A DNA stretch of 39,439 bases from Alphaproteobacteria bacterium (GTDB lineage Bacteria > Pseudomonadota > Alphaproteobacteria > GCA-2731375). Under the pieces are notes generated by a model that had not been told where the DNA came from, did not search any database, and saw nothing but the letters and a program-made list of their open reading frames with translations. The DNA lies in contig JAJFGG010000139.1 in NCBI GenBank assembly GCA_021776235.1, positions 1 to 39,439 of the forward strand, given 5' to 3'. Shown here in pieces: positions 26,634 to 29,393 of this stretch (the first letter of the stretch is position 1; every line of letters starts with the position of its first letter). Both the position numbers and the translations under genes were made by a program.

Positions 26634-27860
26634 ATGATATCTGGCAACGGTATGGAAGGCGCGCTGGCGGGTCTGCGCGTGTTGGATCTGACGCAGTTCG
26701 AGGCGGGGCCCTCGTGCACCGAGGCCATGGCCTTTCTCGGCGCCGAGGTGGTGAAGCTGGAGAACCCGACCTCGGGCGACCAGGGCCGCTTCCGCAAGCC
26801 CGGCAGCGACGAGGACAGCCATTATTTCCTCGAGTTCAACGCCAACAAGAAGAGCGTCACCTGCAACCTGAAGTCCGAGAAGGGCCTGGCGATGGCCAAG
26901 GAGATGGTCAAACAGGCGGACGTCTTCATCGAGAACTTCGCTCCCGGCGCCATCGAGCGGCTGGGGCTCGGCTACGACGTGGTCCGCGAGCTCAATCCGA
27001 AGATCATCTACGCCCAGGTGAAGGGCTTCGCCCAGGACGGGCCGCACGCCAACTACCTCTCCTTCGACATGATCGGGCAGTCGGTGGGGGGCCTGTTGTC
27101 GATCACCGGCGAGCGCGACGGCGTGCCGATCAAGCCCGGCCCGACCATCGGCGATACGGGCACCGGCATGCTGATGTGCATCTCGATCCTTTCGGCCTAC
27201 ATCCAGCGCATGCGCACGGGCAAGGGCCAGCGCATCCAGCTCGCCATGCAGGACGCGATGATCCAGTACTCCCGCATTGCCTATTCGACCATGGCGGACA
27301 CCGGCAAGCCGGGCCCGCGCACCGGCAACAAGACCATCATGGGCGGCACCGCGCCGTCGGGCATCTTCCCCTGCAAGGGCGGCGGGCCGAACGATTACGT
27401 CTACATCTTGGCCAGCCGCGCCAACGAGCAGCACTGGCACCGCATCTGTGACGTGCTGGGCCGCCCGGAGCTGAAAGACGACGAGCGCTTCAACTCACCC
27501 GACAAGCGGTTCGAGAACGAGCCGGCGTTGGACGAGATCCTGACCGAATGGTCGATGGCGCGCGGCAAGCGCGAGGCCTGGGAGGCACTGGGGCAGGCCG
27601 GCGTCCCCGCCGGCGCGGTGCTCGATACCGCGGAGCTCCATTCCGACCCCGACATGGAGGCCCGCGGCATTTTCCGCACCGTCAAGCATCCACAGAAGGG
27701 CGACGTCAAGATGCCGGCTTGGCCGGCCAAGCTGTCGGACTGCGACGTGCCGATGACCGCCGCCCCGTTGCTGGGCCAGCATTCCGAAGAGGTGCTGGGG
27801 CAGTGGCTCAACATGACGCCGTCCGACGTCGCCGCGCTGCGCGACGAAGGCGTCATCTGA
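26634..27860 (+). CDS. CaiB/BaiF (class III) CoA-transferase, formyl-CoA transferase-like
   Basis: A 408-residue class III CoA-transferase. LRVLDLTQFEAGPSCTEAMAF opens the family fold, and ADVFIENFAPGAIERLGLGY near 96-115 is a hallmark. The catalytic aspartate is D174 in GDTGTG, at the position of Asp169 in formyl-CoA transferase. IQLAMQDAMI follows. It moves CoA between carboxylic acids, and the acids are unknown here. ATG 26634 has GGAGGG 7 bases upstream; ATG 26628 would leave only 1 base. The codons stand out: GAG is used for nearly every Glu (about 4 GAA in all), unlike neighbouring genes. It lies between mobile remnants on both sides, so recent transfer is likely. Confidence 0.9.
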   Translation: MISGNGMEGALAGLRVLDLTQFEAGPSCTEAMAFLGAEVVKLENPTSGDQGRFRKPGSDEDSHYFLEFNANKKSVTCNLKSEKGLAMAKEMVKQADVFIENFAPGAIERLGLGYDVVRELNPKIIYAQVKGFAQDGPHANYLSFDMIGQSVGGLLSITGERDGVPIKPGPTIGDTGTGMLMCISILSAYIQRMRTGKGQRIQLAMQDAMIQYSRIAYSTMADTGKPGPRTGNKTIMGGTAPSGIFPCKGGGPNDYVYILASRANEQHWHRICDVLGRPELKDDERFNSPDKRFENEPALDEILTEWSMARGKREAWEALGQAGVPAGAVLDTAELHSDPDMEARGIFRTVKHPQKGDVKMPAWPAKLSDCDVPMTAAPLLGQHSEEVLGQWLNMTPSDVAALRDEGVI

Positions 27861-28006
27861 TTGACGATCAAGCCATGTGTTAGGTGACACCCTTCACATA
27901 TTTGCGCACCGTCCAGATGTAAATTCTTACGACTGCCAAGCGAACTGCTGTGGCTTACGGGACGAGCTTTGCGAGATCACGATGTTGACCAGCGCAGGGC
28001 CAGGTT

Positions 28007-28074
28007 TGAGGGGTCACATTTGAGGGGTCATCATTTGAGGGGTCAGCATTTGAGGGGTCAGGTCTTTCATTTTG
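28007..28074 (+). repeat. left array of GGGGTCA iterons and left inverted-repeat end
   Basis: Four copies of TGAGGGGTCA start at 28007, 28021, 28036 and 28051, spaced 14, 15 and 15 bases. The last is part of a 21-bp sequence (28054-28074) that recurs inverted at 28966-28986. The arm overlaps the stop codon of the Y1 transposase. Confidence 0.9.
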
Positions 28075-28933
28075 TTTTACCTGTTTCCCTGGCAACCGTG
28101 GCTTTTATAATCCGGCTGATATAGCTGTAGTGCAGGCCCGCTTCGACGGCGATTTCGGCCAAGGTGTAACCGTATTGGCGATGGGCGATCGCCATCCATA
28201 GCCGCGCCCCGTCGCCGTCGCGCCGCAACGCCGCTAACGTCGGCCGCGCCAGGCGGCGTTGGCGCGCCGGCGTCTCGGCGCTCGCCCCGCCGGCTTCGTC
28301 CGCCAGGCCGGCAAGAAACTCTTCCCCGCCCAGGGCAACGCCGCCGCGCACGGCCGCCGCCAACCCTTCGGCCAGGGGCGAGGCCGTGGCGGCCGCGCCC
28401 TCGGCGACAAAACGCCGATACGTCGCCTTCGCCTGCCGCCCGCCGAATTGGGATAGCAACCAGTCCGTCGCCAACCATGCCGGCGCCTTGGCTTCGCCCG
28501 CCGTCGCCCGATAGCTCGACCATCGCCATTCGCCCGCGGCCCGGGTCATCCGGGCGCGCACCGGGTTCAAAACCACATAGCGCGCCAGTTCCAGCAGATA
28601 AGAGTCTCTTTCCACGACAATGGCTTTGTACCGGCCCTGAAACACGTGTCCGACACGACCATGGCGGCGATTAAGGCGCTGGGTGTATACGCCGTTGAGC
28701 TGGCGCATCCCGCGCGCCAGGTTGGCTTCCGGCGTCTCGATCAGCAGGTGGTAGTGATTGTCCATCAAGCAATAGGCGTGACAGCGCCAATGAAACTGGA
28801 CCACCACATTGCCCAATGTCTCCAGAAACAGTATCCGATCGTTGTCATCGAGATAAATGTCGTCGCGACGGTTGCCGCGCGCCGTCAGATGATAAACGGC
28901 GCCGCAGTATTCGATGCGGAGAGGACGCGCCAT
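28067..28933 (-). CDS. intact REP-associated (Y1/HUH) transposase with C-terminal HTH
   Basis: A 288-residue Y1_Tnp protein. MARPLRIEYCGAVYHLTARGNRR is the family N-terminus. The HUH pair is H60 and H62 in DNHYHLLIETP, and the catalytic tyrosine is probably Y119 in ARYVVLNPVR. After residue 240 comes a helix-turn-helix, YTLAEIAVEAGLHYSYISRI, which may read the flanking repeats. There are no frameshifts or early stops, so it may be active. Such enzymes cut single strands at REP-like palindromes. Here the coding frame lies between inverted arrays of GGGGTCA units, and the stop codon falls inside the left 21-bp arm. Confidence 0.92.
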   Translation of the reverse strand: MARPLRIEYCGAVYHLTARGNRRDDIYLDDNDRILFLETLGNVVVQFHWRCHAYCLMDNHYHLLIETPEANLARGMRQLNGVYTQRLNRRHGRVGHVFQGRYKAIVVERDSYLLELARYVVLNPVRARMTRAAGEWRWSSYRATAGEAKAPAWLATDWLLSQFGGRQAKATYRRFVAEGAAATASPLAEGLAAAVRGGVALGGEEFLAGLADEAGGASAETPARQRRLARPTLAALRRDGDGARLWMAIAHRQYGYTLAEIAVEAGLHYSYISRIIKATVARETGKTK

Positions 28934-28965
28934 GGCGTCAGACTAGCACGACGCGGCGGCCTATG

Positions 28966-29030
28966 CAAAATGAAAGACCTGACCCCATTTTTTCATTTTT
29001 TGTTGTGACCCCATTTTTTGTTGACCCCAT
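28966..29030 (-). repeat. right inverted-repeat end and inverted GGGGTCA array
   Basis: 28966-28986 is the exact reverse complement of 28054-28074 (21 bp). Three TGACCCCA units begin at about 28980, 29006 and 29022, each followed by a run of T. They are the inverse of the left array, so the element is roughly symmetric around the transposase. Confidence 0.88.
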
Positions 29031-29033
29031 TTT

Positions 29034-29273
29034 TTGTGCGGCATCATCAATTTTGGTCTTGAGCGCGCAGACAGATATTTCGACGGTCTGTTCGCGCGCT
29101 TCGATCAAATCGCCGAGCAGCCTCTGCGTTACCCCGCCGTCGATGAAATCCGCCCCGGCTATCGGCGCAGCATGTATGGCGCGCATTCTATCTATTATCG
29201 GGTCGGCGACGATCGGGTCGACATCATGCGGGTCTTGGGTCGTGAAGACCCGAGCGTGTTACCTATGTCGTAG
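29034..29273 (+). pseudogene. ParE-type toxin, truncated at the N-terminus
   Basis: The frame reads FGLERADRYFDGLFARFDQIAEQPLRYP, then SIYYRVGDDRVDIMRVLGREDP, which is the C-terminal three-quarters of a RelE/ParE toxin. The first 20-25 residues are missing, replaced by the right repeat array of the Y1 element, and no ParD-like antitoxin gene remains upstream. The last residues (SVLPMS) are encoded by one copy of a 13-base direct repeat, so the tail may also be altered. Most likely a dead fragment. Confidence 0.75.
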
Positions 29274-29294
29274 GTACAATCTGTTACCTATGTC
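29257..29294 (+). repeat. 13-base direct repeat at the end of the ParE fragment
   Basis: TGTTACCTATGTC occurs at 29257-29269 and again at 29282-29294. Similar TGTTACCTATGTCTCCGG text is familiar to me from ends of IS481-like elements, so this may be an IS scar; that link is from memory only. Confidence 0.6.
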
Positions 29295-29316: not shown

Positions 29317-29393
29317 TGGTGCGCCCGGCAGGACTCGAACCTGCGACCCCTTGATTAGGAATCAAGTGCTCTATCCGGCTGAGCTACGGGCGC
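29317..29393 (-). tRNA. tRNA-Arg, anticodon CCT
   Basis: Read on the minus strand it forms a full cloverleaf. The acceptor stem GCGCCCG/CGGGCGC is perfect, the D stem is GCTC/GAGC, the anticodon stem CTTGA/TCAAG, the loop TTCCTAA gives anticodon CCT (reads AGG), and the T stem GCAGG/CCTGC has loop TTCGAGT. Discriminator A and the CCA end are encoded (29317-29320 in plus sense TGGT). Its 3' end faces the mobile block on the left, the usual arrangement for an integrase target. Confidence 0.97.

Follow-up and report, generated by a model that had tools for sequence, protein, structure and literature searches.

Short tandem duplications of flank and element tip at the ends of a TIR-type Y1 transposase unit and its relatives

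A Y1 transposase gene on an alphaproteobacterial contig is bordered on both sides by repeated GGGGTCA units, which raises the question of whether these are dedicated sites that the transposase reads or a by-product of how its unit interacts with DNA. The window, meaning the whole stretch of DNA that was analyzed, comprises 39,439 nucleotides (contig JAJFGG010000139.1). The original prediction, made from the sequence alone, had described an intact gene framed by symmetric arrays of iterons, which the C-terminal helix-turn-helix (HTH) of the protein might read to give a self-regulated mobile unit. Exact GGGGTCA was found on the + strand at 28010, 28024, 28039, and 28054 (spacings of 14, 15, and 15) and on the - strand at 28980, 29006, and 29022 (spacings of 26 and 16), in agreement with the predicted four direct copies on the left and three inverted copies on the right. 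The perfect 21-bp terminal inverted repeat (TIR) reported around the gene was likewise confirmed (Table 1); it starts GGGGTCAG, and its left arm is partly coding, as had been stated, since the last 8 bases of the gene fall within it. Over the whole window, GGGGTCA occurs 12 times vs 6.1 expected, a total that is only mildly unusual (3 of 100 shuffles reached 12), and chance clustering was ruled out for the 7 copies within 1,019 bp (Poisson P = 4e-10 from the window rate). The description of the arrays as symmetric holds for the orientation and the heptamer and fails for the spacers, which read, from outside to inside, CATTTGA on the left vs AAAAAAT on the right. The left array is a period-15 tandem duplication of 7 to 8 nt of flank plus GGGGTCA. 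The right array has a period-16 duplication (9 + 7) between its outer two copies and also an 8-nt duplication of flank only (CATTTTTT twice, + strand, 28986 to 29001).

Table 1. Features of the transposase unit and its flanks (positions in the window)
Feature	Position	Strand	Details
Left flank, 3' remnant of a gene	27859..28004	-	Last codons and downstream DNA; longer homologue at G000:C107
Left array	28005..28060	+	Four GGGGTCA; 7-8 nt (n)CATTTGA spacers
Left 21-bp TIR	28054..28074	+	Downstream end of the gene; 100% complementary to 28966-28986
Y1 (HUH) transposase gene, TIRYT type	28067..28933	-	Open frame, 288 aa
Right 21-bp TIR	28966..28986	-	Upstream end of the gene
Right array	28980..29033	-	Three GGGGTCA; A-rich spacers
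Right flank, 79-aa ParE-like ORF	29034..29273	+	PF05016, 42.1 bits

The transposase gene proved to be intact, and its product matched PF01797 (Y1_Tnp) at 44.7 bits. The NCBIfam model NF047646 (REP-associated tyrosine transposases) matched all 45 of 45 aligned sequences at E values up to 0.001 and scored 78.3 bits in the window protein, below the cutoff of 80. Residues H60, H62, and Y119 were invariant across the 45 aligned sequences; by analogy, H60 and H62 would form the HxH pair and Y119 is the candidate catalytic tyrosine. The AlphaFold model of the protein (pLDDT of 90.1) ends in three C-terminal helices, and the best PDB fold match was the REP transposase 4er8, followed by the ISDra2 and IS608 transposases. 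The predicted C-terminal HTH, at about residues 253 to 279, was matched weakly by HTH_3 in the window protein itself (E = 0.015), with HTH_23 present in 43 and HTH_28 in 29 of the 45 aligned relatives (E up to 1).

RAYT-like enzymes with terminal inverted repeats have been named TIRYTs and their units TIRtrons, and the motif GGGGWSAS was noted in TIRtron repeats (Di Nocera et al. 2013, PMC3733652, in its accessible portions). Twenty of these 26 TIRYTs were later assigned to TnpAREP subclass 2.1, which the available text describes as long Y1 proteins with a C-terminal HTH (HTH_23, HTH_28, or Bac_DnaA_C) and without REPs, flanked by inverted repeats that carry GGGG[AT][CG]A[CG] (Quentin et al. 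2018, PMC6006769). The window unit is almost certainly a TIRtron, with one Y1 HUH transposase gene between TIRs beginning GGGGTCAGGTCTT. Its enzyme is a RAYT-like Y1 protein with HUH and Tyr motifs (PF01797, the invariant residues, and the 4er8 fold), long TIRs (21 bp, 100%) take the place of REPs, and GGGGWSAS is present in the window TIR and in a profile over 168 ends. The unit also fits the features of subclass 2.1, including the C-terminal HTH (the weak HTH_3 match, HTH_23 in the relatives, and the three modeled helices), an assignment made by features and not by a tree with the published reference set.

The surroundings of the gene are unlike REP palindromes, as had been noted. No GTAG- or GTGG-tagged hairpin was found beside the gene among inverted repeats with arms of at least 7 nt (27861 to 28080 and 28920 to 29120). 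The first interval contained none of these repeats and the second contained 2, one within the ParE-like ORF and the other AT-rich and made of TIR and array spacer, neither of them tagged. Classical REP hairpins, as beside a RAYT gene, were therefore not seen in these intervals, and the NF047646 score lies under the cutoff. An IS200/IS605 insertion sequence was rejected on the perfect 21-bp TIR. The transposases of that family (IS608 and ISDra2) share the same HUH/Tyr fold but recognize subterminal secondary structures (PMC6006769), and its known members have no terminal inverted repeats (PMC2817692), according to the portions of these two sources that were available.

Short tandem duplications recurred at the ends of related elements. 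The first set comprised the window element and 79 relatives, taken as the best 80 matches listed in a scan of bacterial genomes; among these best matches, the relatives were 48 to 59% identical and came from many phyla, and 75 of the 79 yielded an ATG-to-stop frame of 240 to 340 aa. A tandem duplication was defined as an exact run of at least 11 nt covering at least 0.6 of the period, and end zones were 200 nt. Duplications were present in 39 of 144 end zones vs 6 of 656 control zones (P = 3e-25), the controls being gene interiors (0 of 240) and flanks 300 to 1000 nt away (6 of 416), and arrays are thus not absent around all related transposases, the outcome that would have refuted the original prediction. 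Intergenic location as the cause was rejected, with duplications in only 4 of 113 intergenic-like control windows (end zones vs these windows, P = 1.5e-7). One of these 4 windows, at locus L095, is itself a TIR-like end with a GGGGTCA duplication. Upstream of the gene at this locus (L095:1490-1590) stand two more GGGGTCAGGTCTTTCC ends with no transposase match; the outer end carries a GGGGTCA duplication, with an A-rich flank that is similar to the window's right array.

When 398 genomes of the phylum were searched for a second sample, duplications were present in 15 of 52 end zones vs 3 of 225 controls (P = 1e-9). Here, 28 of 29 loci were usable (L193 was dropped, as no gene was found), and 3 loci repeat first-set records. 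Among the repeats, L173 (the L026 record) was left out of the breakpoint, composition, and intergenic-control analyses, and L181 and L192 (the L038 and L089 records) were dropped from the profile, composition, conservation, and near-perfect sets and kept in the second-sample and 171-end denominators, where they show no duplication. The positive zones of the two samples and of a sister group described below (39, 15, and 8) include some duplications without the tip heptamer (e.g., L023, L033, L037, L176, L182, and L217). The samples consist of best-scoring relatives, most of them in metagenome assemblies; an assembly artifact was rejected, since arrays were also found in isolates (L068, L071, and L096) and on a complete Legionella plasmid. 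A class-wide search for the array pattern matched 3 of 385 genomes, namely the window's genome and two others of its genus, and near-identical elements were not found in plasmid and phage searches. With few exceptions, copies read GGGGTCA upstream of the gene and TGACCCC downstream of it, an orientation fixed relative to the gene. At the 149 ends with enough sequence, exact GGGGTCA was absent from 59, single at 60, and present in two or more copies at 30, with a maximum of 13.

The composition of the duplicated units bears directly on what the arrays are. A typical unit consists of about 8 nt of locus-specific flank plus the first 0 to 3, 7 to 9, or 14 or more bases of the element, and its length varies between loci from 8 to over 40 nt. 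In 53 of 70 adjacent pairs, L036 alone contributing 13 of the 70, the copies matched outward for 5 nt or more, vs 0.4% between loci, and dedicated iterons were rejected on this match between neighboring spacers. The heptamer was kept in 49 of 87 cases and the adjacent flank in 49 of 88; with the heptamer no better conserved, no sign of selection on it was seen.

Breakpoints were placed at 198 ends of 107 loci, 171 of them with and 27 without a recognizable TIR. The duplication spans the element boundary at 46 of the 171 recognizable ends, its inner copy being the TIR itself, and the remaining 125 have no boundary-spanning duplication. Among the 46, the inner edge lies at +7 to +9, just past GGGGTCA, in 23, and the duplicated flank measures 7 to 10 nt in 25. 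A near-perfect set retained 40 of 45 rows (L036_U [two rows], L023_D, L086_D, and L077_U were left out). In it, inner edges of ≤3, 7 to 9, and ≥14 nt (n = 12, 21, and 7) went with median outer edges of 7, 8, and 8 nt, respectively; the outer edge therefore stays near -8 while the inner edge moves. For inner edges of at least 7 nt, 18 of 28 outer edges fell at 6 to 10 nt (P = 6e-6 against a uniform 0-20 null). Instead of a single position, the outer breakpoints form a peak, with a range of 0 to 14 nt in the 40 near-perfect duplications. Flank-only duplications made up 12 of the 40, a class in which the required run of at least 7 favors outer values of at least 5. Junction homology was 0 in 22 of 40 and near random expectation (over 40 junctions only and without a formal test), evidence against simple slippage of preexisting repeats as the first step. 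The window arrays fit this family pattern, with a left period of 15 (7 + 8), a right period of 16 (9 + 7), and the 8-nt flank-only duplication.

Base composition outside the tip was also biased. Over 168 ends, T was depleted outside GGGGTCA at positions -8 (18 T; P = 1e-5), -7 (22 T; P = 3e-4), -6 (13 T; P = 3.5e-8), and -5 (24 T; P = 1e-3), and this depletion was not seen at -9 to -12; something therefore probably reads positions -8 to -5. At L177, homology with three further copies of the flanking sequence breaks off 8 nt short of the TIR, and the left-flank homology of the window element (to G000:C107, G000 being the window's genome) reaches to within 5 nt of the outermost GGGGTCA. GAWGCT just outside the right-end TGACCCC/T is shared by L255, L256, and L257, which are near-identical elements located at different sites, either as a target preference or as carried-over flank. 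From these two homology stops and the shared GAWGCT, the 8 nt may belong to the mobile unit. No clear target-site duplication was found over 68 two-ended loci (396, 1955, 803, and 86 of 2000 shuffles at 4, 6, 8, and 10 nt, respectively), and only the match at 10 nt was borderline. In inverted orientation, the flanks of a given element were slightly more alike than those of different elements (8 of 2000 shuffles reached the match at 6 nt). Clean empty sites were not found with flanks in the window's genus or with joined flanks in the family of G416, both of which gave one-sided matches only.

The timing of the arrays was evident from copies that are otherwise nearly the same. Three copies of one element, 98 to 99% identical, carry 13 + 2, 1 + 2, and no exact heptamers at their left and right ends; the third, which terminates in TGACCCT, is without its left tip. 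A fourth, partial copy (L258; the first 223 nt, 96%) has a left end only, with a single GGGGTCA, and a candidate right end 736 nt upstream of that left end was rejected as belonging to something else. Similarly, the window element and a relative in another species of the genus differ in their arrays while being 90% identical in protein and 89.7% identical in DNA. Because near-identical copies have different boundaries, the arrays arise after insertion. The window's genome also contains elements with TIRs only, without a transposase gene between the ends. One of these (L015) has an exact period-15 duplication of 8 nt of flank plus tip, its right end being interrupted, and another (L014) has period-15 duplications of 8 nt of flank plus a degenerate tip, which points to action in trans.

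A sister group of transposases separated the arrays from the HTH. The window's genome encodes a 226-aa Y1 protein (L006) that had no HTH match on a scan, which covered L006 itself; its relatives were judged to be of the HTH-less type by their similar short length. This second TIR-type group (L006 and L202 to L231) has GGGGACGCTACCC or GGGGACA(GTATA) ends. The relatives L203 to L231 are 43 to 67% identical, with GGGGACA, GGGGACG, or AGGGAC tips at the 42 ends with a tip. Duplications were present in 8 of 53 end zones vs 4 of 197 controls (P = 6e-4). This count used 28 of 30 loci, L210 and L226 having been dropped with no gene found. Of 12 near-perfect duplications near tips, 9 reach the tip, and 8 of these start 6 to 9 nt outside it, with inner edges at 1, 5, 6, 7, 8, 11, 17, and 27; the remaining one is a 50-nt unit. 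Since sisters of the HTH-less type follow the same rule, the HTH seems unnecessary for array formation, and the sister-group sequences point to the shared catalytic domain and weaken the iteron reading.

How the duplications form was considered in light of this geometry. We give about an even chance to the account in which the arrays are postinsertion tandem duplications at element ends, made by a nick, a short strand-displacing extension, and resealing by the transposase. The geometry itself was observed in the sequences; the nick, its polarity, and the reseal we infer by analogy with the HUH family. The transposase would nick a single strand some 8 nt outside GGGGTCA and remain attached to the 5' end. 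Strand-displacing synthesis from the free 3'-OH would then add a few to about 40 nt, and the transposase would join the new 3' end to the 5' end that it carries, so that flank plus element tip is present once more. The array would then be a stutter product, and the extra GGGGTCA copies may in turn add transposase binding sites. Long arrays, such as that of L036 with 13 copies of a 9-mer, are likely to have grown later by slippage.

Slippage could also account for more than this growth. Replication slippage or unequal recombination where replication stalls, at bound transposase or at a TIR cruciform, would make the transposase a roadblock only, and we regard this as somewhat unlikely. Short tandem duplications of such size are a usual product of slippage, multicopy arrays of the L036 type very likely grew by it once two copies existed, and the L095 control window shows the same kind of duplication at a TIR-like end. 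The near-random junction homology, an outer edge that stays near 8 nt whatever the inner edge, and the absence of duplications from all 240 gene interior zones count against it, however. An origin before the element, with preexisting tandem repeats as insertion targets or the arrays as relics of repeated nested insertions, is very improbable. Several left-end copies do stand in a row at L022 and L175, and the 12 of 40 flank-only duplications could in principle predate insertion, but near-identical copies differ in their arrays, no clear target-site duplication was found over 68 loci, and most units cannot predate the first insertion because they contain the element's own tip.

The reading as selected iterons, in which the C-terminal HTH reads the copies as binding sites for control of transposase expression or for assembly of a synaptic complex, is improbable, if less so than preexisting repeats. 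In its favor, nearly all aligned relatives have the HTH, and the copies nearly always stand in direct orientation upstream of the gene and inverted downstream of it. In many relatives, about 46 nt separate the upstream TIR from the start codon, and in several the inner TIR reads CTTGACAT, which resembles the -35 box of a putative promoter. Yet the HTH-less-type sisters carry the same duplications, the heptamer is conserved no better than the adjacent flank, the unit length is inconstant between loci (8 to over 40 nt), and 119 of 149 ends have a single exact GGGGTCA or none. The claim of dedicated iterons read by the HTH was not supported, the spacers being locus-specific and looking like copies of the flank; the HTH may nevertheless bind the repeats, and the unit may regulate itself.

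TIRYTs are widespread Y1 transposases, and the duplications record where these enzymes may act on DNA, some 8 nt beyond the tip, with a purine-leaning stretch from -8 to -5; the geometry yields a precise prediction of the cleavage site. That the same rule operates in the HTH-less-type sisters separates catalysis from DNA reading. More broadly, and only tentatively, with a chance somewhat below even, TIR-type Y1 HUH transposases may nick, extend, and reseal at a set distance outside their ends, also in trans at TIR-only elements, and so place tandem arrays of the recognition tip plus 8 nt of host DNA in the chromosome, acting as an insertion sequence-encoded minisatellite generator in at least two Y1 groups with different tips, a possible explanation for REP and REPIN clusters.

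The nearest precedent for the rule is the tandem REPIN and REP clusters that include flanking DNA. Tandem REPIN clusters include flanking sequence, and a second mechanism for clusters was inferred from them (Bertels and Rainey 2011, PMC3116915); large clusters of GTAG REPs repeat in tandem and take varying lengths of flanking DNA with them (Di Nocera et al. 2013, PMC3733652). In the accessible portions of both papers, Y1-associated repeats are thus repeated in tandem along with their flanks, as in the arrays described here, and the array rule offers a mechanism for these clusters. The unit there is a REPIN or REP plus flank, whereas here it is the element tip plus about 8 nt, and the arrays differ further in having a preferred outer edge, a small unit, and a location at the ends of intact transposase genes. 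TIRtrons themselves are already known, with GGGGWSAS in TIRs at a similar distance from the gene and with some TIRs forming dispersed families, dimers, or clusters, but the available text of PMC3733652 gives these without fixed flank-plus-tip duplications at the gene's own ends, and terminal array duplications are likewise absent from the account of subclass 2.1 in the portions of PMC6006769 consulted. What these published accounts lack, as far as their accessible text goes, is therefore the array rule at element ends. Among the papers listed in open-access searches, neither a duplication of flank plus tip nor a tie between the heptamer GGGGTCA and such elements was reported, and the accessible parts of the literature covered contain no report of demonstrated TIRYT activity.

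The window element lies between two gene remnants (27859 to 29273) that each retain the 3' part only, which suggests a rearrangement or deletion at the element. The left remnant is 87% identical over 146 nt to its longer homologue, which presumably resembles a thiamine-diphosphate enzyme such as oxalyl-CoA decarboxylase. The ParE-like ORF on the right matches positions 20 to 86 of 89 of the ParE toxin, its N terminus apparently missing at the array edge. Farther right, at 29257 to 29294, TGTTACCTATGTC occurs twice, 25 bp apart, and adjoins a tRNA-Arg gene (29317 to 29393); stretches similar to this one were found at G000:C60 and C70, and the repeats are probably the end of another mobile element.

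The elements with TIRs only form a family of about 60 to 85 bp with GGGGTCAGGTCTTTCTTCTTG-like ends, found on contigs C26, C56, C70, C72, and C142 of the window's genome (L013 to L015, L017, and L020), with single ends on C80, C139, and C147, and they are analogous to REPINs. Their TIR was absent, within one mismatch, from all four Y1 genes found in that genome; a similar TIR was, however, seen around a transposase (L117) of another species in the genus. In the copies on C72 (L015) and C56 (L013), one and the same sequence interrupts the TIR at an identical position, and both contigs end within about 200 nt; the reading frame in the interrupting sequence resembles, we presume, the start of an IS110-type transposase. 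REPs are insertion hot spots for some insertion sequences, and the TIR of L013 and L015 may be such a hot spot.
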